Assembly (NCBI RefSeq): GCF_026151205.1
Contig: NC_087078.1
Coordinates: 5,535,675-5,599,674 of the forward strand
DNA from: Bolinopsis microptera
Taxonomy: Eukaryota; Ctenophora; Tentaculata; Lobata; Bolinopsidae
Reading direction: 5' to 3'
DNA length: 64,000 nucleotides
In this document: positions 11,546-40,600 of the stretch, piece by piece
How positions within the stretch are numbered: position 1 is the first letter of the stretch
How the letters are laid out: each line of letters begins with the position of its first letter
Notes under the pieces: generated by a model
The model's database searches: none
Told to the model about the DNA's origin: nothing
The model's input: only the letters and a program-made list of their open reading frames with translations
Program-made: the position numbers and the translations under genes

Positions 11546-13224
11546 TCAGGGCAGGTTATAACGTTTGTCTTTAGAGTCTGGAAATTCAGCAGATTTGGAG
11601 ATGTCTTTAGGGACGATAGGTGGAGCCGGTGGAGCTGGGGTTTAAAGACAGTTAGAAACATTACAGTGATCACATTATAGCTTGTATCAATCATTGTTCA
11701 GACTATATATTTGGAGCGAAGAAGCTCCACAATTGTACTCTCCAGAAATAAGCTCAAATGTGGAACTTAAGAAAACACTTGCAACCTCACTCTTTGTTCA
11801 GCAGTTCGTGGTTCTAAACAATACAATGAAGGTAACGAAAGAAAACAACTTGATACCGGACCCCTAAACAAATCGAGAACATGCAAACTGAAATTAAATG
11901 CTGACTTCAGTCTGTTACCTAGACCTGGTCTATTAAATTGCTGACTTCAGTCTGTTACCTAGACCTGGTCTATTAAATTGCTGACTTCAGTCTGTTACAT
12001 GGCCTGGTCTATTAAATTGCTGACTTCAGTCTGTTACCTGGTCTATTAAATTGCTGACTTCAGTCTGTTGCCTGGTCTATCAAATTGCTGACTTCAGTCT
12101 GTTACCTGGTCTATTAAATTGCTGACTTCAGTCTGTTACCTGGTCTATTAAATTGCTGACTTCAGTCTGTTACCTGGTCTATTAAATTGCTGACTTCAGT
12201 CTGTTATCTGGTATATTAAATTGCTGAATTCAGTCTGTTACCTGGTCTATCAAATTGCTGACTTCAGTCTGTTACCTGGTCTATTAAATTGCTGACTTCA
12301 GTCTGTTATCTGGTATATTAAATTGCTGAATTCAGTCTGTTACCTGGTCTATCAAATTGCTGACTTCAGTCTGTTACCTGGTCTATTAAATTGCTGACTT
12401 CAGTCTGTTACCTGGTCTATTAAATTGCTGACTTCAGTCTGTTACCTGGTCTATTAAATTGCTGACTTCAGTCTGTTATCTGGTATATTAAATTGCTGAA
12501 TTCAGTCTGTTACCTGGTCTATCAAATTGCTGACTTCAGTCTGTTACCTGGTCTATCAAATTGCTGACTTCAGTCTGTTATCTGGTCTATTAAATTGCTG
12601 ACTTCAGTCTGTTATCTGGTCTATTAAATTGCTGACTTCAGTCTGTTACCTGGTCTATTAAATTGCTGACTTCAGTCTGTTATCTGGTATATTAAATTGC
12701 TGAATTCAGTCTGTTACCTGGTCTATTAAATTGCTGACTTCAGTCTGTTACCTGATCTATCAAATTGCTGACTTCAGTCTGTTATCTGGTCTATTAAATT
12801 GCTGACTTCAGTCTGTTACCTGGTCTATTAAATTGCTGACTTCAGTCTGTTACCTGGTCTATTAAATTGCTGACTTCAGTCTGTTACCTGGTCTATCAAA
12901 TTGCTGACTTCAGTCTGTTACCTGGTCTATTAAATTGCTGACTTCAGTCTGTTACCTGGTCTATTAAATTGCTGACTTCAGTCTGTTACCTGGTCTATTA
13001 TCAGGTGGAGTCTCGTTGAGCACCATCCATCTACCATTAAGATGCCTCAACTGCTGGATCAGTGCCAGGATGTCCACTAGGTACCTCTTCTTAGTGATAT
13101 CACAGAGATGTTGCATACTGGGAATTATACTATAAATTGATCTCAAAAACTTAGCAGTGAAAGCAGTATTAATGACATTCTCACTTTTCAGAACTAAGTG
13201 CCTAATATAATTAAGATAGAACAT
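11546..13224 (-). CDS. small unknown protein, two exons around a minisatellite intron
   Basis: Exon 1 is 12990-13224 and exon 2 is 11546-11634, both phase 1 at the junction (CCAG|GTAACAG donor, AACCCCAG acceptor), about 107 residues. The N-terminal part is helical (LRSIYSIIPSMQHLCDITKK, then LVDILALIQQLRHLNGRW). The C-terminal tail is proline-rich (APPAPPIVPKD) and ends in TGA. The ATG sits directly after CTGTTTAG, a plausible acceptor, so the true start may lie upstream. The donor is made by the first unit of the 34-bp minisatellite that fills the intron. I do not recognise the family. The model rests on phase agreement and could be a chance pairing. Confidence 0.4.
11892..13000. repeat. 34-bp minisatellite, about 32 copies
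   Basis: The unit reads TGCTGACTTCAGTCTGTTAC then CTGGTCTATTAAAT. The first copies are 38-40 bp, with an extra CTAGAC or ATGG before CTGGTC. Variant units (ATCTGGTATATT with GAATTCAG; CTATCAAA) recur in the same order, which points to a higher-order repeat. On the minus strand every unit contains CCAGGTAACAG, a reasonable splice donor. Confidence 0.95.
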
Positions 13225-26932: not shown

Positions 26933-27346
26933 TTAAAATTTTGTTTTTGTGTCGGGATCCATATTGAGATCGACTTGTTTTGATATGTGTTTTATGATAG
27001 ACATATTAGGTGTGTAAATAGGCGCTCTGTAAAGAACGATAGGTTTAATAAGACCATCAAAGAGTGTTGTTAGAGAGCGGAATGATAATTTGGATTTGTT
27101 TACTGAGCTTTTCATGGCATAGAGTGCACGCATGGCTTTCTTTTTGAGCTCAGTTCGGGCATTTGTGAATGAGCCGGATTTGTGTATTTCGATTCCTCGA
27201 TAACAGTATGACTCGACTTCTTCTAACAAGTGATTACCAATTTTGAGGGGAACCGGCTGATGATTATCAAAACGGGCATTAAATTTCATGAGTTTAGTTT
27301 TATCTGCATTAATTTCGACGCCCCATTCCGAGCAGAAATTGTTCAT
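26933..27346 (-). mobile_element. LINE reverse-transcriptase fragment
   Basis: A 137-residue open frame matches the post-catalytic part of a non-LTR reverse transcriptase (WGVEINADKTKLMKF, SYCYRGIEIHKSGSFTNART, LKKKAMRALYAMKSS, LFDGLIKPIVLY). The order and spacing match residues after the ADD motif in the ORF2 at 32611-36101, so it is a diverged relative. It is cut off abruptly at 27346, where MULE sequence on the other strand begins. Confidence 0.8.
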
Positions 27347-27918
27347 GAGTGACTACGAGAGAGCCCTGATCAACGCTGTGGAGACAACCTGGCCCACTAC
27401 TACCAAGAGAGGATGCTTCTTCCACCACAAGCAAGCACTTTGGAGGAAGATGCAGCAACATGACCTAGTCCCGGAATACAACGCAGAGAACTCAGCAGTA
27501 CGGAAGTACTTTCAGATGATCGGTACTGGATACCTGGACGCAGCTGAGAGAATGGATTCCTTTGCTGACTACTACGAACGTACCTGGGTCGGAACAAAAA
27601 CTTCCTCTTCCCTCTACACACACTGGATCTGGAATCAACGGGATGCTGTCATGGCCGGACTCCCCAGAAGTTCAAACATTGCTGAGGGTTGGCACAACGG
27701 TTTTCGATCCTTGATTGGCTGCACCAGGCACCAACCCTACTATCTGGCGATTTATCGACGTCCTGAAGAAGGAGCAGGATCTAACCCAGTGGAAGATCAA
27801 CCAGAAGATGCTCAGACAACCAACTCCTCGCCGACTGAAGAAGTGGACCGATTACGACCGTCGCTTGAACGCTGTGATTGATTGCTACGATGATTATGAC
27901 AGAATGGACTATTTGAAG
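27342..27918 (+). pseudogene. MULE transposase fragment, frameshifted
   Basis: The frame from 27342 encodes the C-terminal half of a Mutator-like transposase (SDYERALINAVETTWP, KRGCFFHHKQALWRKMQ, then LPRSSNIAEGWHNGFRSLIG). At about 27715-27740 the similarity shifts frame and continues with NPTIWRFIDVLKKEQDLTQW and LRQPTPRRLKKWTDYDRR to about 27918. The N-terminal DDE residues are missing. GTGTCGCAC (27971) and GTGCGACAC (28051) downstream are inverted and might belong to its terminal repeat. Inactive. Confidence 0.8.
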
Positions 27919-28076: not shown

Positions 28077-28498
28077 CCACATAGTCAACGTTATAAATAG
28101 TATTTTAAACAAAGGATACTTCCTCTCGGAGAAGGGACGATATGATAAGCAGTATTATTTATGCTACAGAGGGCTATTGAAGTTTCCCAATACTTGGATT
28201 CACTAACTGACCGAGTCTGCAGTACTTAACGTTATATCACACTTTTAGTGTTTCTATATTTAACTGCATACTACAATAAAATAACCTTCACTCCTGAAGT
28301 TCACCATTTTAAATAGCAGCAGCGTTCAAGCCCGTCTCAGTAATCAAACGTATGTACATATGTACTAGTAATTTTAGGAACACCTATATTATATTTTGTT
28401 TATATATCATTTATTATATTTTATTTCAACCTTATTTGAGGCTTGAGTAAGGATCGTTTTTTACAAACTTTGAGAAGCAATGTCATATTACATGCATT
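28077..28498 (+). repeat. dispersed direct repeat, copy 1
   Basis: Runs from ACATAGTCAACGTTATAAAT to ATGTCATATTACATGCATT and matches 36829-37247 in the same orientation with few differences and small indels. It has no coding potential. The pair brackets the AlkB-encoding retrotransposon, but no link is shown. Confidence 0.75.
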
Positions 28499-29604
28499 AA
28501 GGGGAGATACACCAAAAACGTTTGTGCTCCGAACATCGATTTTATTTTATATTATGGTTAAATAGACAAAAAGAATAAGATTGCACACCTTCACAATTTT
28601 CTAAAAATATTCCCTCATCGAGAAACAAAATATTTTTCTTTTTCGAAAATTTTTAAAATTTGGAGAAGTCTGTCACTGTAATACCGATAGTTCTGCTATT
28701 TTAAAAGTTTTTCGACTGATTTTTTATTGAACATTACTTACAATCCGTACAAGAAGCCATTAAAAGGATTATATAATTGAACGATAAATGACGAAGTTAC
28801 AGACCAAACAAGGTCGAAAAAATAAAAATTGAAATTTTTCCCACTTCTAAAGTTGTACATTTCACCAATCACCCGGGTCAGCAGATATCGCTTCAAAAAT
28901 TCTTGTGAGTGTAGCTGATGATCATATCAAACTTTTTGGAGTAGGATTTCTCTCAGATTTGAGTTTTAAGCTATGCAATGTGGCCTCAAACGACTTAGTA
29001 AAATTCATCGTAAAAAAGGGCAAAAAAGGCAGATTTAAGGCTTAAAATGCCTATAACTCAAAAAGTATCAGTTTTTTTGAAATTATTTTTACAGAATCGT
29101 AATCAACTTGGTAAGACGAATCTTTTAGTACCAAGTAGGTGCTTTTAGAAGACAAATTGTCTTAAATAATTTTCAAGCTCGAACACAAGGGTCCCCCCTT
29201 GAATAAATTTTGTACAAATTGTACACATTTTTTTACAAATTTTGTGTCTTTAAATATTATAAATGTCGTACTAAAAGATTCGAAGCCCATAAGCAAATTT
29301 TTTTTAAATCGGTCGGTGGTAAGTGGTTTAATTGATGGTTTTGTACCAAAAATGTGACATAAAATAGCTTGAGCAGAACGGCAAGAGTTACGGGGCTTGC
29401 TCTCTCTCTCTCTCTCTCATTACTGTATATGTAGCGTCATAATTGGGTTAGCCCAGGAAGATTCGCTGTAATTTTATACCATAAGCTTATTAGGGGAGGA
29501 GGGACTGTTAGTGTTTGGGGTCTGTTTGGACTGCAGAGAGAGAGAGAGAGTTCATACTTTCAACACTACTATATAACAAATAATTTGAGGATGTACCATG
29601 GAAG
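28499..29604. other. noncoding AT-rich DNA
   Basis: No exon-like frame. A TC tract (29399-29418) and a GA tract (29535-29550) lie about 120 bases apart as inverted simple repeats. Confidence 0.45.
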
Positions 29605-30371
29605 TCTAGAGTACCCGCAACAAAAAATGCAGCTGTAAACGACTTGGTAACGGGGTGCATGTGAGCTCTGGGGGCCAGTGGCATCAGAAGACTGGCTATC
29701 AGCCTTGAAAATAAGATGAGTTCTTTAGATTCATGTCACATCTGCACTGCATCTTCAATCTCCATCACAATGACACAAACACTTTCTCCTTCACTACCCT
29801 ACCCTACCCTAGCCTAACCCTACCCCTCCCTCCTTTTACCTGTTGCGGGTACTCTGGACTGCATGGACATCCTTGAATAGAGATATTTTATATAGTAGTG
29901 TTGTGGTATTATACTGTGTACATGTATATATATTCTATCCTATATATCAATATATTCTATATCTATATTATATACTGTATCTTTTATATACAAACTTTTC
30001 CTTACCCCCGCCTCCCCTTCCTCTATAAATTGTACTCAAATCCCACACCCAACCTACTATTGACTTACTAAATAACCTCTATATCTCTACATTGGGCCAT
30101 AGCAGTCCACCCCGCTCCCTTCCCCTCCCTCCCCTATTCCACCAAGCACCAACATCTCTCCAAATCACATCATAAACTTTCATGTAATTAGACCTTGTGT
30201 TCCTTTTTTATTTTATTTTGAAAATGATTTTGTTTAACTTTACCTCTTTACCTGATATCACTCACCCCTGTCAAAACTGTGTTACTCTCATTATCTTATT
30301 TTCAGGCTGTTGGTTGGTTTGATGGTGCCCTTGCCCCCATCTCATTATGTGCTCCCTACCATCTATTCTTC

Positions 30372-32561
30372 ATGCAAGACAGAACTCTTACTGAAGATAA
30401 TTCTCGATCAACGAGATCGAGAAACAACTCCTCTCCCCTGGATGGAAATGTTATTGACTTTACGAAACCTATCACCATCACAACGCCCGGATGCTATGTG
30501 CTTAGCAATCCTGACTCTGGTTGTAGAATCAGTCTCTTTCAGGATGTGTTTGCAAGCCAACTGTGTGACCAATTTTCCTCTGAAATCGAAAATACTGGCA
30601 CCCTTAAACAGTACAACACAATCCATAGGCAGTCTCAGGCGCCACTTCCAAGACTCTCGTCATGGTTTGGACCCGTAGACTATGCGTTCTCAGGAATCGT
30701 AATGAAAGCTAATTCTGTCTCCCAATGTCCTCGCCTTATTGCAGCATATCAGAACATGGCCGAAAACCTCTTCACACCCAACAACATTGATTGCTCCTCT
30801 GACTGCTTTTTGATAAACCAGTATAGGACTGGACGTGATTCCTGTGGTGAGCACAGTGACAATGAGCCAGAGGTTGACCTCTCAAAACCTGTCGTTACTC
30901 TGTCACTTGGCCAACAGCGCTGCATGCTCATCAGAGAGGCTAAGAACCCTGGAAATGCCATCACAGTCAAACTCGACCAGGGTTCAGTTCTTGTAATGCA
31001 TGGTACTGATTTCCAAAAGAAATATACGCACCAAATACCCAAAGATAATGTGATCACTAATTCACGTATCTCTGTGACCTACAGGACCTGCAGCTCCACT
31101 TTCCTAAGAAACCGAAGTGCCCTATCTACACCCCTGAAAGAGATATCTATCACTCCTATACTCGCCCCCAAGACCCCTGGAGTCTCAGGCTCACCATCGC
31201 TACCTCTGCACAACAGACGTAGATCCTCCTTGTCTCTGTCTAGCTTCTCACAAGTTGACACCAGCTCAGTTGGGTCTCCAGTGGCCAGTAGTTCTCCTTC
31301 CATAACCAGCAGTAAAACATCAGTCTCTGATAGTGATACATTGCCTCTCAGCATAGAAGCCATGCTTGAAGCCATTGATCTAATGAAAGACAAAACCGTG
31401 AAAAGCGAACTTTCTCGCCATGGCAGCACAAACTCTGGAACCCCTCTGCATTGTAAGAAAAGACTGAAGAAAGTTGCGAAAGCATGTCACAAACGCCTGA
31501 GCACGCTTCTTGTTGAGCCTCCAGTAGTCTCAGCTGAGCCCGAATGCGTTACCCATTCCCTCCAAACTTTGGAAAACTCTGTTATTGATCTACAATCCAA
31601 AATAAGTCTACAACATAGCACCCTCCAAACACTTGTCTTATGTTCTGACAGTAATTCCACTCAAAAAGGTAGTGTCAGCCCCCCTAACCTGTCTAATGAA
31701 CTCAACACTATGGACAAGAGACTTGAAAAGTTAGAGGATATAATGAGCAGCATAAACGAAAAACAACATGAAACTGCTACCTCCCTTAAAGCCTTCGAAG
31801 CAGATGTCACTGCAATCAAGAACAAAGTAGATGACTCTAAGGCCTGCCTACAGTCTCTCCAGCTTAATGACCGCACCACCCCATCCAGAAAAAAGCCATC
31901 ACCTCATCCTCAAAACCAGAACCACCCAACCCACAGCCCTAGTAGACAAACGCGAAAACCAAAAAAGGTTCTACTCCTACATGACTCCCAGATGAACAAC
32001 TTTCTACCTGAGTCATTTTCCTCTGGGTTCAAGGTGGAAAAAATGAAAGTAGGCTCTTATTATACTGACATGATAAAAGAGCACTGTATGAGAGATGTCA
32101 TTAAACAGCCAGAGGTCGACTGTTACATTCTCCAGCTTGGAGTCAACGACTACAGATACAGAACCTGCTCTGTTAATAAAGCGATTGAGGATGCAAAATC
32201 AGTCATCGATAAACTCCTCTCGAGCTCCAGTGCAAAGGTTGTCATCTCCCTACCCGCCCCAACCCCTGGATTAATCAGTGAACTTACCAACCAATTTGTC
32301 TCAGAAATAACCCTATTTGTCTCAGCTAAAAGAGGGTTAAGTGACTTTTACCGCCGCCTATATACTGTAAACAATACTGGGAACTTCTCCCGTGCCATCT
32401 CTGCTGCTGAGTCATCCCAAGACTCTCCTAACCCGTTGAAGGAGGACCAACTTCATGTCTCAGAGTATGGTTTGAAAAAACTTTGTTTGAATATTAAACT
32501 TGGCCTATACCGTGCCTTTGGTATGAGATCCCATAGAAAGCAGCCCCCTACAGAGCGTTAG
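30372..32561 (+). CDS. LINE ORF1: AlkB-like dioxygenase, coiled coil, SGNH hydrolase
   Basis: About 729 residues from the ATG at 30372; the frame is open upstream to 30279 without an ATG. Residues about 40-240 form an AlkB-like 2OG-Fe(II) dioxygenase: iron ligands H161-S-D163 in GEHSDNE and H220 in THQIPK, 2-oxoglutarate arginine R232 and substrate-side R238 in RISVTYR, plus PVVTLSLGQQRCMLIRE. A Ser-rich linker and a coiled coil (about 410-500) follow. Residues about 530-720 resemble an SGNH hydrolase: LLLHDSQ with Ser539, LGVND with Asn592, and DQLH with Asp692 and His695. SGNH/esterase domains are known in ORF1 of CR1-like LINEs. The AlkB domain suggests alkylation repair of element RNA or cDNA, which is inference. 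Confidence 0.88.
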   Translation: MQDRTLTEDNSRSTRSRNNSSPLDGNVIDFTKPITITTPGCYVLSNPDSGCRISLFQDVFASQLCDQFSSEIENTGTLKQYNTIHRQSQAPLPRLSSWFGPVDYAFSGIVMKANSVSQCPRLIAAYQNMAENLFTPNNIDCSSDCFLINQYRTGRDSCGEHSDNEPEVDLSKPVVTLSLGQQRCMLIREAKNPGNAITVKLDQGSVLVMHGTDFQKKYTHQIPKDNVITNSRISVTYRTCSSTFLRNRSALSTPLKEISITPILAPKTPGVSGSPSLPLHNRRRSSLSLSSFSQVDTSSVGSPVASSSPSITSSKTSVSDSDTLPLSIEAMLEAIDLMKDKTVKSELSRHGSTNSGTPLHCKKRLKKVAKACHKRLSTLLVEPPVVSAEPECVTHSLQTLENSVIDLQSKISLQHSTLQTLVLCSDSNSTQKGSVSPPNLSNELNTMDKRLEKLEDIMSSINEKQHETATSLKAFEADVTAIKNKVDDSKACLQSLQLNDRTTPSRKKPSPHPQNQNHPTHSPSRQTRKPKKVLLLHDSQMNNFLPESFSSGFKVEKMKVGSYYTDMIKEHCMRDVIKQPEVDCYILQLGVNDYRYRTCSVNKAIEDAKSVIDKLLSSSSAKVVISLPAPTPGLISELTNQFVSEITLFVSAKRGLSDFYRRLYTVNNTGNFSRAISAAESSQDSPNPLKEDQLHVSEYGLKKLCLNIKLGLYRAFGMRSHRKQPPTER

Positions 32562-32610
32562 ATTAACCCTAAAATTCAAGAAAAAACAAGTATCACGAGA
32601 TCAAGTCGCT

Positions 32611-35600
32611 GTGATGTCCTGGAACATCCAGGACAGCACAGGAGACGGGTCTAACAAATTTGAAAATAGCGAATTTTTGTCAATCCTCAAACAAGCTAAC
32701 ATTCTTTGTCTTCAAGAAACAAAGAAGCAAGTTAAGATTGAAGGATACCTCTCTTTTAATAGCAACCGCAAAAATTCACGCTCAGGGGGGTCTGCATTCT
32801 TGCTGAAAATGACCTAAGAAAAGGTGTCTCTAGTGTGCTTTGTAATGAATCTGATGACATTATTGTTGTTAAACTGGACATGAACTTTTTTAAACTTGAT
32901 TTTGACCTATTTTTGGTATGTTATTATATTAGCCCTGCATACTCGTCCTATGTCAAGAAGAATCCAGATTATACTGCTAATACCTTCTCTGCTCTTGACT
33001 CTATCTGTACCAGACTACGTCAAAAGGGAGAAGTTATTATGTGTGGCGATGCAAATGCAAGAACTGGAAAACTCCCAGACTATATCCTTTCCTGTAATGC
33101 ACCTGCCATCCATGACATCTATAACGACATTGGACTCGAGCACGACATAGAAGAACCAAGAAACAATTCTGACCTTACAATATCTGAACCCCACTGCCAA
33201 CACTTCCTTGACATGGTTATCAATAACCAACTCAAAATTCTCAATGGTCGTACCCTTGGGGACACCACTGGAAAAATGACCTGTCACAAATACAATGGAA
33301 GCAGTGTGGTTGACTATTTTGTAATCACCTCATGGGCAAGAGATCATGTAAACTCTCTCCAAGTAAAAGAGTTTACATCATACTCTGATCATTGTCCACT
33401 AGTCTTGAAACTCACTACATTTGAACCATTTGTCGCAAACTTCCAGCTCCCAGACTTTTCTAACTTTCCTTGTGGCTATAAGTGGGACAGCAACACCTCC
33501 CATTCACTATTTAAAAAAGCCCTTACCTCGCCCGAAATTATCAACAATCTGGAAAGCATTGTGACAAATGAATTTAGCAGTACTCTGGAGGGCAATCACG
33601 AACTGAACGATGCAGTCATAAAATGTCTCCACAGTGCTGCTGATATAGCCCTAAAAGTGAAAAAGCCTCCCAAAAATTCTGCCCGTAAAAAATGGTTTGA
33701 CCCACAAGTCAACTCCTCGCGGCGGAACCTTAATAGGCTAGCAAATCGGCTTGGTAGTAAGCACTGTAACAGTATCCTCAGACGAGAATACTTTAAGCAA
33801 CGCAACAAGCATAGCAATTTTGTAAACAGTAAGAAAGTAGCATTCCTTAAGAAGCTAAATGAAGCTATAGAAGAAGGTCACATACTCGACTGGAAAAAAT
33901 TTAAACGGCTCAAACAAGAACATGACACTAGCCCCTTACTTGACAAATTTGATTTAGCTAGCTTCCATGACTTCTTTGCATCCCTTTATAAAAAACCAGA
34001 CCAGGAGCCAGATCTCACTCACCACAATCACAAACATTACCCTGAACCACCAGATCTGGATATCCTAAATAAGCTCATGTCAGAATCTGAAGTGACCTCT
34101 GCCATCAAAAATCTCAAAAAAGGTAAAAGTTGCTCAAACGACTTGATATCCAACGAGATGCTTCAGAGCGTGACTCCGCTTTGTCTCAAAGCCATCCTCA
34201 AAAACTTCAACCACTCACTGGTCTCCGGTTACTATCCATGGCACACCAGCATCATTACTCCTATTTACAAGTCTGGCAACCCTTTCAGCCCGGACAACTA
34301 CAGAGCAATAGCTGTTGGTAGCTGTATGGGTAAACTGTTTTCTAGCATCTTACTTGAGCGTCTCCTGCACTTCAAAAAGCTCTACTGCCCTGACCCAAAA
34401 GAACAACTAGGGTTCTCGAAGGGTGCTCAAACAAATGACCACGTTTTTACCCTTAAGACAGTCATTGACAAATATACCAAGGTTAAGAAAGCTCGCATCT
34501 ATGCATGCTTTGTTGATCTAAGAAAGGCCTTTGACACTGTATGTAGGGACCTCCTTCTGCACAAAATCACATGCCTTGGAATAACTGGAAACTTCTTCAA
34601 TTGCCTAAGTGATATGTATAGAAACTCAATAGCTCATATAAAAATCTCCAAACTCTTGTCCCCTAATATTGACATTGGAAAAGGAACAGAGCAGGGACAC
34701 CCCCTATCACCGGACCTTTTTAAAATCTATATCAACGACTTGTCATCTCTCCTGAAATCTGTTGCTGATTATCCTATTCTAGCTGACGTCCTAATATCAC
34801 ATCTGCTCTGGGCTGACGATCTTGTCCTACTTGCCCTAAGTCCCAAGGCCTTGCAAGACAATATAAACATCCTATTCGACTTCTGTAACTCTATGGGCCT
34901 TGAAGTAAACATTAAAAAAACCAAGATTCTCATATTCTGCCCTCCTAAAAGAAAACAATCCTATGAAACATTCATTTTGGGAGGCCAGCCCATCCAACAC
35001 ACCGAAAAATACTGCTATCTTGGCATTATATTCCACAGAAATGGATCTTTTACAGCAGCAAATACTGAACTGAGGGCCAAGGCTCTCCGTGCTCTCTATG
35101 GCCTCAAAGGCAATATCGTCAAAGATGCCCTCTCTCACCGTTCACTATACATTCTATTTGACTCTCTAATAAAACCGATACTGCTCTATGGCTGCCAAAT
35201 CTTATGTCCTCACTCAAAAACCATGAGATACCTCTCCAAAACAGATAGCAAAGCCAACCCCCAGCATACTCTCAGGTACATCTCACAAGACCACTATGAA
35301 AGATTCCACCTTAGGTTTATCAAGTGGTCCTTGTCTGTCCATTCAAAAGCATCAAATATAGGCTGCTGGGGCGAAAGTGGGCGCCACCCCCTCTTCTTTG
35401 AAGCCTGCAAACTTGCAATAGATTTCTATAGTCGCCTTGAAAGCACTGAAAATGAACTTCTCTCCGCTGCATTTCACGAGCAGATTATGCTGGGCCTTCC
35501 TTGGTACACCAACATCTCTAATCTTCTCACCAAATATAACTTCCCCCACTCATCCTCTTCAAAATCCAAGCTCTCTACCCAAATCAGTCACAACATGAGG

Positions 35601-36101
35601 GAAGAATTTGTGGATACCTGGAAATCTGCCAAGGCATCCTCACCTAAATTAGAATTCTACAATCAAATTAAACATGATTTTGAACCAGAAACATACTTAG
35701 GAGTGGTTAAGATCCCCGATGCTCGGAAAAGCTTAACAAGGTTTCGTATTAGCTGCCACAATCCTTACATTGAGAGGGGCCGTTACGAAACCCCTCTAGT
35801 ACCAAGAGAACATCGATGGTGCACTTTTTGCTTTTTCAGCAAGGGGCTTAAGCCTATTGAGGACGAAATTCATGTTCTAACTGACTGTTTACTCTACTCC
35901 TCAATTAGAGAAAAATTTAACTTCCATCCCGAAAATATTACTGACCTAGCCGGTTTGCTATCCGATAAAACACTAGACCCTACAAAATTTACTGCCACAG
36001 CAAGAGCAATCCATTCAATTCTCTCTGTGAACGAAAATTTTACAGCCTACTATAAGAGCCCAGATTTCCACTCAAATACTGGCCAATGCATAATGCTATA
36101 G
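32611..36101 (+). CDS. LINE ORF2: APE endonuclease and reverse transcriptase (one frameshift)
   Basis: The endonuclease begins MSWNIQ...LCLQETK in one frame and continues after a shift near the G6 run 32785-32790 (then GVCILAENDLRKG, CGDANARTG, SVVDYFVI, YSDHCPLVL). The reverse transcriptase core carries LKKGKSCSND, PDNYRAIAVGS, FVDLRKAFDTV (motif A), GTEQGHPLSPDLF (motif B) and LLWADDLVLL (motif C). The C terminus has a Cys/His motif (RWCTFC...EIHVLTDCLLY). One extra G would restore the frame, so the shift may be a real mutation, a programmed slip or a sequencing error in a homopolymer. Total length is about 1160 residues. Confidence 0.88.
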
Positions 36102-37672
36102 GACCTCAAAAATAGTATTATAAAACATTTCTATTTTATCCCTACACATTTGTAAATAACTAGAATTGTGTAACCTTAAATTATTTCAGAATTATAACTA
36201 TTGTGAATTCTGCAATAAAATAATTATCACTTTTGTATCCTTGTATCCTTGTTGTATCCTTGTATCATACGACAATGTTATGCGTGTTTTCAAATATAAT
36301 AGGCGGGTGTGGTGCGGAATTAACAAGGGTTAATTTCTATAACGATTTAAATAAAAATGGAAAGCGGTTCAAGACTTACTGGGCGGCGCTCAGCCTGTCA
36401 TTCCGCCAAATCTTTATGAACATAATAGCCTGGAGTCCCCAGGTAATTCAAGACGGGAGTGATGAGGTGTAATAGTCGGTGTGCAGACCTTATGATCATG
36501 GAAGGTGGTGCCTAATGGCTAATAGTAATAATGACTTAATTATTCACTAGTATTATATATTAGGGTTTTAGCAGTTGCTTCACAAGGTCATTCACAAAAA
36601 TTGTATCAATTGCAGTGATCGATAATGTTGAGAAGTCAGAAAAACGATAAACAATGATAGTTTATTCAATTATCATCAACGATATTTTCAGCCATTTCCA
36701 TTTCATACCATTTGCCCATATTTAACTCTCATGTTTTCAGCTCTGGTCCTGCATATTGCTGTTATTCTTTATTAGTTTGTATAAAATCTGATATCATCAC
36801 TGCTGCTATTATGCACATACTATTATGCACATAGTCAACGTTATAAATAGTATTTTAAACAAAGGATACTTCCTCTCGGAGAAGGGACGATATGATAAGC
36901 AGTATTATTTATGCTACAGAGGGCTATTGAAGTTTCCCAATACTTGGATTCACTAACTGACCGAGTCAGTACGTTATATCATCACACTTTTAGTGTTCCT
37001 ATATTTTACTGCATACTACAATAAAATAACCTTCACTTCTGAAGATCACTATTTTAAATAGCAGCAGCGTTCAAGCCCGTATCAGTTATCATACTAGTAA
37101 TTTTAGGAACACCTATATTATATTTTGTTTATATATCATTTATTATATTTACTATATTTTATTTCAATCTTATTTGAGGCTGGAAGCGTAAGGATCGTTT
37201 TTTACAAAGTTTGAGAAGCAATGTCATATTACATACATTTAACTACCGTATATTACCGGACTTTATTTGTACGGATATTAATTGAACGCTGGAGGCCCTA
37301 GCATTCATTTTAATGTCCGTTCAAATAAAGTCTGTCCAATTCAAAGTCCGCTGAATTTTTTCTTCGAATGTTTTTCACTACGAACTTATTTTCCAAGATA
37401 TTATTGCTTTTAAAAATCACTATCAGTCAATGTCAATTTCCATCATCGGACTAAATTATATCGACAGGTTTATTGTTTACTACTGTTGCAATTCGTTCAA
37501 GTATTGTTAACTAAATACCCTTTGGCGAAATCATATAATCTTTATTAGCATACCGTAACTGTTTAACTGTGAAGTTGTGATTATTACTCACCTATTTCAT
37601 ATTTGATTTCTTGTTTTTTTAATGCAAACCTTTAATTTAGCAAAAGACTATGAATCTGCAGAAATAGGAAGA
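36102..37672. other. intergenic, repeat-rich
   Basis: Contains the LINE tail, a copy of the dispersed repeat of 20720-20905 (36300-36450), the second copy of the 28077 repeat (36829-37247), and a foldback at about 37257-37345 (GGACTTTATTTGTACGGA facing TCCGTTCAAATAAAGTC). No gene recognised. Confidence 0.6.
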
Positions 37673-40600
37673 ATGAAAACTATCGTGAATCTCCAACTTT
37701 CTCTACTCGTCTCTTTATGTCTCGTTACAAAGTCACATGCGGGTAAGATACGTTTAAAAAATTACATTAACGATTTTTAAACACTGATTTCGAATCATCC
37801 CACTATATCCAGAGAATGTGTTTAAGTAATTAACACGACACGTGATAGTCGACAGTATTAATCATCATGACATCATCCGTAAAAACCCAAAATCGCTATA
37901 TTCAGGTACCTAAAATATGGTAAAAGCGAGCGACCTATTTCATTTTCGGTATCATTTTGCAATCGAAGTGGATAATTTAAAATAATATCATCAAACTAGT
38001 CTGTTATTTTAAAATCGCAACATTTTATGAAATTTGCAGATGAACCAGTTGAAGGTGTCAGTTTGTTCGGCGTTATCAGTGAGTTTGGTGATGACGTACC
38101 CCCAGGTGAGAGAGGATTGCTGCTTTACAAGGGTAGTACAGTGTGTGACGACCCTTTTAGTACCTCTGCAGCGAACGATATCTGCAAACAAATGGGTTAC
38201 ACACGGGCGATGCTTTGGGATAGTGGAAATTATCCTCTCGACTTTCAAGAAAGATTTGATATCGCATTTACAAAGGTTGATTGTAGGCTTGACGCGGATG
38301 ACTGGCGAACCTGTCAAGTATTTACTATTCACAGCACCTGGTGTAGTCATTTCAGCGATGTGTTTCTAACTTGTACAGCAGGTATTTACAATATGGTATT
38401 ATAATCCCTGTAGAACTGTTGTTTATTATTAATATCAAACTAAAATCTCCGTCGTGTCTGAAGAAGTAGAAACGAAGCAGCTTAAGTCAACAAAGTTAAA
38501 AGTTACACTTTTAGCTATTGTTGATAATTGGATAAATTTTATTTGCTTTTACAGCATTTCCGGATAAAACGGACCACATTGGGTAATGAAAATAAATAAA
38601 TTGGACTTGAATTGAGATTTTCAAATTGCGTCAAGTTAATTATTTACATCATGTTCCACGTGTTCTTTTCATGACACTTCTACTCTGAATTTTTGTTTTG
38701 TTTCAGGAAATAATCAGAACGGAGAAGATATTTCACAAATTGCCGGTACGTATATGAAATTATTAGCACACGAATTGTGCAATTATTTGCAAACGAATTA
38801 TGCGATTAGTTGCACATGAATCAAGCGATTGAAGGCAAATGTGATGATGAAGCCATTAAACAAATCTGAATGTTTTAGAACTAAGTCAGGGTTCCTCTAC
38901 CAATGGGCTTAAAAGAATTAATAGTCAATGAGCTCCAAATCTCATGCAATACTCAAACTAAGGCCCAACATCACTGCACCAGTATTATGAATTATCATGT
39001 AGAAAGGAAACCACTCTCATCGCTCAATTCCCATTTAGAGATTTTAGTCCAACGTCTTCGGACTACAACCTCCTTTTATACAAATTTGATTAAAATAAAT
39101 GTGTTCTGACTTATGCACTATAAGATTAAGACCGGAGATGACGTAAAGATAAAGCGAAATTTCTTGGACAACCCTAAACTTATATTCAATTCGAAACGAG
39201 GACCATTTATCGTTCACAAGAAAATTAGGCCCACCAACTTTACTATTAAAATTCCAGGAGAAGCATTCAAGATTTATCATTGCCGTAAATCTCAAACCTA
39301 TCGGTACACAAATAACTGAGACTAAAACGGCTAAGTATGAACTGGAGAGTGTGCTCCAACTTTCGGAATCAATGACAATAATTTCACAACCTCCTACATA
39401 ACTGAAGAAAGAACCTGCTGAACTAGTGTCAACCCTAGACACTAACACTTTTACCAGTAACGTGTTTAACCCACCAACACAACCCCTCCGCAAGCAACCC
39501 ACTTACCATCTTCTAGCACAAACCCTCCGCAAGCAACCCACTTACCATCTTCTAGCACAACCCTTCCGCAAGCAACCCACTTACCATCTTCTAGCACAAC
39601 CCCTCCGCAAGCAACCCACTTACCATCTTCTAGCACAACCCCTCCGCAAGCAACCCACTTACCATCTTCTAGCACAACCCCTCCGCAAGCAACCCACTTA
39701 CCATCTTCTAGCACAACCCCTCCGCAAGCAACCCACTTACCATCTTCTAGCACAACCCCAACGCAAGCAACCCACTTACCATCTTCTAGCACAACCCCTC
39801 CGCAAGAAACCCACTGACCATCTTCTAGCACAACCCCTCAGCAAGCAACCCACTTACCATCTTCTAGCACAACCCCTCCGCAAGCAACCCACTTACCATC
39901 TTCTAGCACAACCCCTCCGCAAGCAACCCACTTACCATCTTCTAGCACAACCCCTCCGCAAGCAACCCACTTACCATCTTCTAGCACAACCCCTCCGCAA
40001 GCAACCCACTTACCATCTTCTAGCACAGACCCTACCAGAACCTTAGGAACCTACTAGGACTTCATCAGGGCGACCTGTACAAAAAACTATATTCCTGGGT
40101 GTCGTTTAATTATATAATTAAATATGAGTCATTCTAACATTTTAAACATAAACATTTAACATACCGGACATTGCGTGAACTGCGTGAAAAATAACAATAT
40201 AAACGTAATGTTATACTTTTGCAGATAAAGCATTTAAAGGAGACGTGGTGTTCAGTCTGGTCAGTACTACTGGCGATGAAGTTCCGCCCGGTGAGAGGGG
40301 ACTATTACTTTACAAGGAGGGCATAGTGAGTGACTATTTATTTAGCAGTAATGCAGCGACCGCTATCTGCAAAGAACTGGGTTACATACGGGCAATAAGC
40401 TGGACCAATAAAGCTTTCGATCTGATTTATTTTTCTTCGGATTATCGGAAACAACTTGATGTCACACTGACTGCTGTAGAATGCTCTACTGATGAGTGGA
40501 GATCTTGCACGTATTTGACACATGAGATTAAGAAGATCTTGTACGCTCGTGACACAACATATGTGTCACTAACTTGCACTGCAGGTATTTTAAATAAATT

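Follow-up and report, generated by a model that had tools for sequence, protein, structure and literature searches.

An ORF1 with predicted AlkB-like demethylase and SGNH esterase domains in a LINE of the ctenophore Bolinopsis microptera

No part of retrotransposition is understood as poorly as the ORF1 proteins of LINEs, and the locus described here raises the question of what a dioxygenase of the AlkB family would do in such a protein. The locus lies in a window of 64,000 nucleotides from Bolinopsis microptera (contig NC_087078.1, positions 5,535,675 to 5,599,674 of the forward strand), which is the whole stretch of DNA analysed and to which all coordinates refer. In the initial annotation it was claimed that an AlkB-like dioxygenase is fused to an SGNH hydrolase in one LINE ORF1. 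This fusion was confirmed; it is part of a multi-copy element and recurs in other species. The element comprises the following features:

29551..36269, plus strand: complete LINE copy of 6,719 bp, ends set by comparison with 15 other copies
29551..29925, plus strand: structured 5'-terminal UTR, hairpin from inverted-repeat arms at 29561-29622 and 29841-29903
30372..32561, plus strand: ORF1, 729 aa, intact
30462..31106, plus strand: AlkB (2OG-Fe(II) dioxygenase) domain, residues 31-245
AlkB ligands: H161 (30852), D163 (30858) and H220 (31029) for Fe; R232 (31065) and R238 (31083)
31344..31511, plus strand: weak SAP-like helical segment, residues 325-380 (PF02037 and helices)
31542..31862, plus strand: coiled coil, residues 391-497 (helices and weak coiled-coil Pfam matches)
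31956..32522, plus strand: SGNH hydrolase domain, residues 529-717
SGNH residues: S539 (31986), G590-x-N592-D593 (32139), D692 (32445) and H695 (32454)
32614..36101, plus strand: ORF2 with APE endonuclease and reverse transcriptase (PF14529, PF00078), frame broken
36102..36269, plus strand: 3' UTR, terminating in short TTGTATCC repeats

The comparison copies originate from the window's own genome and were each taken as a 9.9-kb stretch. The 5' end was found exactly at 29551 in ten of the 15 and within 10 bp in two more, and the 3' end at 36264-36274 in 12 of 15. Since the copies share both end positions, the element was defined as 29551-36269. Three of the 15 (L031, L032 and L043) showed more internal start points, corresponding to a 5' truncation; dispersed copies with a common 3' end and 5' truncations are characteristic of an APE-type LINE. 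Among 13 copies including that of the window, flank matches of 7-8 bp in the same register were observed in three (L035, L038 and L039); a 7-bp match of L034 in another register shows that such lengths can also arise by chance. The window copy itself has no target-site duplication between its two flanks.

The inverted-repeat arms of the 5' hairpin are 81.5% identical, and for 29551-29920 a fold of -118.6 kcal/mol (z of -5.87) was calculated, with none of 100 shuffles being as good. Between one copy of subfamily A and two copies of subfamily B (see below), the hairpin region showed an identity of 93-94%, compared to 71-75% in the next 446 nt. The higher conservation of the hairpin between the subfamilies could be due either to constraint or to exchange. 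For the 3' UTR, one A copy compared with two B copies gave 93-96% identity in the aligned bases, with 44-46 gap columns. An Rfam search of 29300-36600 gave no match up to E=1.

Downstream of ORF1, ORF2 matched the APE domain with an E-value of 1.2e-9 and the reverse transcriptase domain with 2e-28. In the window copy ORF1 is intact, and ORF2 is present as two open pieces (32527-32817 and 32763-36101) with the frame break between 32763 and 32817. Both ORFs are open in five of the 16 copies (L031, L032, L037, L038 and L039), with an ORF2 of 1162 aa. Judged by these sequence features, the element is an APE-type LINE (non-LTR retrotransposon). Since 470 relatives of ORF2 and 25 of ORF1 were found among public proteins, more distant ORF2 relatives with another ORF1 are likely; every copy of the window family was located via ORF1. 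No relative was found in scans of viral contigs or in a phage search with ORF2.

AlkB enzymes are defined by the motifs N-x-Y, H-x-D...H and R-x5-R. All of them, including the iron ligands of H-x-D...H, were found in ORF1, together with an AlkB fold in sequence and structure model. The SGNH domain comprises the serine of block I, the glycine of block II, the GxND of block III and the DxxH of block V as well as an SGNH fold. For the SAP-like part, PF02037 was matched in 5 of 25 family members (best E 0.0087), with helices at residues 328-337, 340-349 and 358-381, while the helices of the coiled coil span residues 391-424 and 440-497. The nearest characterised enzyme to the AlkB domain is ALKBH3, both by sequence (PDB) and by structure model. 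The 50 structural matches listed do not include the esterase of ZfL2-1, which excludes nothing. Altogether, sequence and model predict an ORF1p in which a catalytic demethylase resembling ALKBH3 is joined to a SAP-like/coiled-coil region and an esterase of the SGNH type. An occurrence of the motifs by chance was rejected by the domain, PDB and structure-model matches, and an AlkB gene merely adjoining the LINE by the recurrence of the single ORF in further copies and on further contigs.

Of 7991 candidates in a protein search, 25 proved to be relatives of ORF1. Apart from P0026, which was excluded from the family alignment due to its differently arranged domains, 24 relatives align over the full protein or the part present, with 40-98% identity to the query. 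In the resulting 25 rows including the query, H161, D163, E165, N149 and Y151 are identical in 24 of 24 rows with letters at these positions, and H220, R232, R238 and the catalytic residues of the SGNH domain do not vary in any of the 25 rows; PF13532 matched all 25 aligned proteins, a list of predicted proteins and thus biased towards intact ORFs. The named members belong to Bolinopsis and Mnemiopsis, and in Mnemiopsis ORF1 (ACHWQZ_G008545) and ORF2 (ACHWQZ_G008544) carry consecutive tags, on contigs of equal length.

At the genomic level, 63 matches of ORF1 were found in the window's own genome, of which 29 places were used (the copy on contig C32 was omitted). The 16 motif positions were unchanged in 316 of 316 cells, with 17 places covering H161 and D163, 18 covering H220 and 24 covering S539. 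At the same 29 places the share of kept residues was 94.9% for the other AlkB positions and 87.4% for the linker; many of the copies are young, and unchanged residues alone are therefore weak evidence. Loss of the metal ligands in most copies, which according to the initial annotation would argue against function, was not observed: none of the 29 places examined, out of 63, has lost the Fe or 2-oxoglutarate ligands. The omitted copy (L030/L044) shows 88% DNA identity over its longest stretch and no frame of 150 aa, and perhaps represents an uncorrected contig instead of an old copy. The Bolinopsis protein named 'alkB homolog 3-like' by NCBI (P0147) matches 47% of ORF1 at 99% identity and, by this match, is a piece of the ORF1 of the window LINE. 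Ctenophore gene models with this name can thus be transposon pieces.

The comparison of dN/dS across copies, also proposed at the outset, was carried out for each domain by the Nei-Gojobori method within one genome, between subfamily A, comprising the window copy and L031-L035, and subfamily B, comprising L036-L039. Within ORF1, AlkB gave 0.055, SGNH 0.127, the coiled coil 0.141, the SAP-like segment 0.27 and the linkers 0.30 and 0.23, compared to 0.142 for all of ORF1 and 0.061 for ORF2 (the latter from two A and three B copies); the N-terminal 30 residues of ORF1 gave no dS. AlkB is the most constrained measured part of ORF1 and about equal to ORF2, and strong purifying selection acts on this domain. 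Trees of the AlkB and SGNH domains (22 complete rows) have 12 of 19 splits in common, with no conflict among splits with a support of at least 0.9. This agreement is as expected from the sequences had both domains travelled together.

The domain is not restricted to the window family. When the genome was searched with PF13532, at least 151 matches were obtained (587 first-look candidates, 150 scored), including the window family and host exons. Among the 150 listed, 149 are stop-free and 114 lie in frames of at least 500 aa. Frame sizes of 551, 593, 611, about 645, 676 and 692-707 aa recur, six frames exceed 2,000 aa, and a separate search gave a further class of about 630 aa. Such repeated sizes look like the mark of transposon families, with AlkB massively present in apparent mobile elements. 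One of these, L046 (522-5000), comprises a 646-aa ORF1 with AlkB (5.7e-23) and SGNH (8.3e-6) and, downstream of it, an ORF2 with APE (4.1e-6) and reverse transcriptase (2e-36), and is by its domains a second LINE with an AlkB-SGNH ORF1; its ORF2 is 29% identical to that of the window over 244 residues. L050 (265-1920) encodes a 551-aa ORF with AlkB (1.1e-18) and SGNH (0.00037, below the curated cut-off), which is 31% identical to the ORF1 of L046 over 489 columns. Since 23 full-length copies of this ORF at 96-100% identity (22 of them stop-free) were found among the matches listed, along with 15 at 65-66%, the element was probably active recently.

A different order was observed in L047 (2383-8499; C10:16872000-16880500), part of a 3388-aa frame in which an N-terminal SGNH (7.5e-6) is followed by AlkB (4.2e-21). 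In the 2039 of 3388 aa that were read, DUF6570 (8.1e-14) and Helitron_like_N (PF14214, 1e-7) were also found, and a helicase would be expected in the remainder; L047 would accordingly be Helitron-type, belonging to a Helitron or something related. Its SGNH-AlkB part is matched by four frames longer than 3,000 aa, one of them L047 itself. Among public proteins, P0152 resembles the window ORF1 in carrying AlkB and then SGNH in one ORF, as does its relative P0026 (33% over 559 columns). Its arrangement is a PHD domain (weak, 0.0061), a coiled coil (by eye), AlkB and SGNH; in contrast to the window ORF1, the PHD stands at the N-terminus, AlkB directly adjoins SGNH, and the AlkB domain falls into another tree group. 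That the domain order differs between these proteins points to rearrangement or repeated assembly without proving it.

With regard to the origin of the domain, the initial annotation had considered a closely matching host AlkB gene, together with copies of the ORF2 family lacking AlkB, as a sign of a one-off capture. Host ALKBH3 and ALKBH2 exons are indeed present in the genome (L049, best PDB match ALKBH3 with 3e-40; L048, best PDB match ALKBH2 with 2.7e-59), as a recent capture of a host gene without selected function would require. However, the LINE AlkB domain is only 29% identical to the host ALKBH3 and 27% to ALKBH2 in the best aligned piece, the fusion is retained across a family of 40-98% identity, and the low dN/dS of the domain speaks for a selected function. 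A recent one-off capture is thus largely contradicted by the sequences and hardly credible. An unrooted tree calculated from 19 AlkB cores shows three groups which meet at one node: the window family with a UFBoot support of 99, the AlkBs of the other transposons with 96, and host ALKBH2/3 with 89. Although ALKBH3 is the best PDB match, host ALKBH2 and ALKBH3 group together and apart from the window family. Since the tree does not nest the window domain inside ALKBH3, an analogy with ALKBH3 is a weak guide to the substrate. One recruitment followed by divergence would fit this tree as well as two; a first interpretation in favour of two recruitments was given up, as the tree is unrooted and the three groups join at a single node.

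Among known ORF1 proteins, which a catalogue of 448 Jockey-superfamily elements divides into types I-V (PMC4120745), the window ORF1 resembles the type IV esterase ORF1s reported for zebrafish ZfL2-1 and RTEX, in which a coiled coil is followed by an SGNH esterase (PMC3905857). SGNH ORF1s have been described in CR1, RTEX and Penelope-like elements, and for the esterase ORF1ps of RepBase no structural RNA-binding domain was reported (PMC3905857). Type IV comprises a coiled coil and no structural nucleic-acid-binding domain, whereas the window ORF1 has the AlkB dioxygenase, a domain of a nucleic-acid-enzyme family, and the SAP-like segment upstream of the coiled coil. By its domain content it is a variant of the esterase-type ORF1 and no plain member. 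With human ALKBH3 the domain shares the fold, HxD..H, R-x5-R and the motifs PRLxxW(Y/F)G and H(S/A)D(N/D)E, while ALKBH3 is a host repair gene and the frame read of host exon L049 shows no SGNH. AlkB domains of viruses stand in a polyprotein context and are not known to occur with reverse transcription or SGNH. A similarity lies in AlkB being carried by a selfish RNA replicon, as reported for RNA viruses including those of plants (PMC544882, PMC9452765). The closest precedent in a retrotransposon is the AlkB (2-ODD) ORF of an orchid (Phalaenopsis) Ty3/Gypsy element, described as an AlkB-family demethylase active in vitro (PMC9289625). That element differs in being a plant LTR element with AlkB in a separate second ORF and of the m6A type, with no SGNH mentioned in passages describing it (PMC9289625). 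The word AlkB does not occur in the main text of the ORF1 catalogue (PMC4120745). The titles and beginnings of abstracts listed in searches of the open literature gave neither an AlkB in a LINE ORF1 nor an AlkB-SGNH pair in a transposon. Within this literature, what is new is the AlkB in a LINE ORF1, while SGNH in LINE ORF1s and AlkB in the orchid LTR element are known already.

Enzymes of the AlkB family oxidise methyl groups off bases with Fe(II), O2 and 2-oxoglutarate. On balance, the AlkB domain would probably serve the element by clearing its nucleic acid, and m1A/m3C would be the main target, the substrate being assigned by analogy. ORF1p would coat the element RNA and, with these reactants, strip methyl groups of the Watson-Crick face (m1A, m3C) from the RNA template; single-stranded cDNA might be demethylated too. 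Such methyl groups would block the reverse transcriptase, and their removal before or during target-primed reverse transcription would preserve full-length copying. ALKBH3 is reported to demethylate m1A in mRNA, m1A to truncate or mutate cDNA, and AlkB treatment to let reverse transcriptases pass m1A, m3C and m1G (ARM-seq; PMC9141559). Template clearing appears most plausible because an RNA-coating protein would carry its own AlkB and AlkB treatment aids reverse transcription. For the SGNH part we assume the role that has been suggested for esterases of other LINEs, namely in the assembly of membranes or RNPs; the ZfL2-1 SGNH esterase is described as membrane-binding and weakly active (PMC3905857). 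Of the initial proposal that the element protects or unmasks its own RNA or cDNA, the conserved AlkB-SGNH fusion with its ligands stands; protection or unmasking itself is what we infer, with m1A/m3C favoured over m6A.

Three other roles were weighed against template clearing. The domain could repair m1A/m3C lesions in single-stranded DNA (cDNA, the displaced strand or the rolling-circle strand of a Helitron) rather than remove marks from RNA. By their titles, the best ALKBH3 structures matching the AlkB model are complexes with ssDNA. Helitrons move as DNA. Since the Helitron-type L047 with its AlkB-SGNH pair would do so too, a substrate beyond or other than RNA can be argued, and ssDNA would be a common denominator with LINE cDNA. 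However, the tree places the AlkB of the window family in a different group from that of the other transposons, so that a common substrate is not required, and ORF1p is expected on RNA, so that this role is considered unlikely. A removal of host-deposited m6A from the element RNA, by which recognition and decay would be evaded, has been proposed for the orchid Ty3/Gypsy AlkB with its measured demethylase activity (PMC9289625). Against it, ALKBH3 as closest characterised relative points by analogy to m1A/m3C and not m6A: the domain is closest to ALKBH3 and ALKBH2, and among the model and sequence matches listed FTO ranks lower and ALKBH5 does not occur. Furthermore, in mammalian L1 m6A is reported to help and ALKBH5 to suppress (PMC7873242). 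An m6A eraser is accordingly rated as rather improbable. Finally, the AlkB fold could act as a nucleic-acid-binding module in place of a missing RRM, with incidental catalysis; one may be needed, as esterase-type ORF1ps are reported without structural RNA-binding domains (PMC3905857). The invariance of all Fe and 2-oxoglutarate ligands in the sequences and places examined and the constraint on the domain, the strongest measured in ORF1, render mere binding very improbable.

Beyond template clearing in the window LINE, the shared AlkB-SGNH module is possibly a larger story. Tentatively, and with more doubt, AlkB and SGNH could be a recurrent accessory module of ctenophore selfish DNA, occurring in LINE ORF1s and Helitron-type elements in differing orders and perhaps assembled more than once, by which elements with single-stranded intermediates would rid their RNA or ssDNA of host-made or chemical methylation belonging to the m1A/m3C class. 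If so, nucleic-acid methylation would be, or have been, a front line between ctenophore genomes and transposons, and the module a natural counterpart of laboratory AlkB-assisted reverse transcription. That a single animal genome holds AlkB in so many repeated frames, those of LINEs and of a Helitron-type element among them, would surprise specialists. For the LINE itself, the demethylase in ORF1p is preserved to much the same degree as the ORF of the reverse transcriptase, and such a protein makes it possible to ask directly if retrotransposition is limited by methylated bases in the RNA template or the cDNA, and if hosts make use of such a limit.

In the surroundings of the LINE, a direct repeat (28078-28498 and 36828-37239, 88.9% identical) flanks the element on both sides. 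A MULE transposase fragment was observed at 27288-27881 (PF10551, 5.8e-6, 27.1 bits compared to a cut-off of 27.6), and an SRCR domain at 38000-38404 (PF00530, 7.9e-11) is probably a host-gene exon. Long tandem arrays consist of 34-bp units at 11923-13000 and of 39-bp units at 39478-40032, the latter being open in frame and encoding 13-residue repeats.
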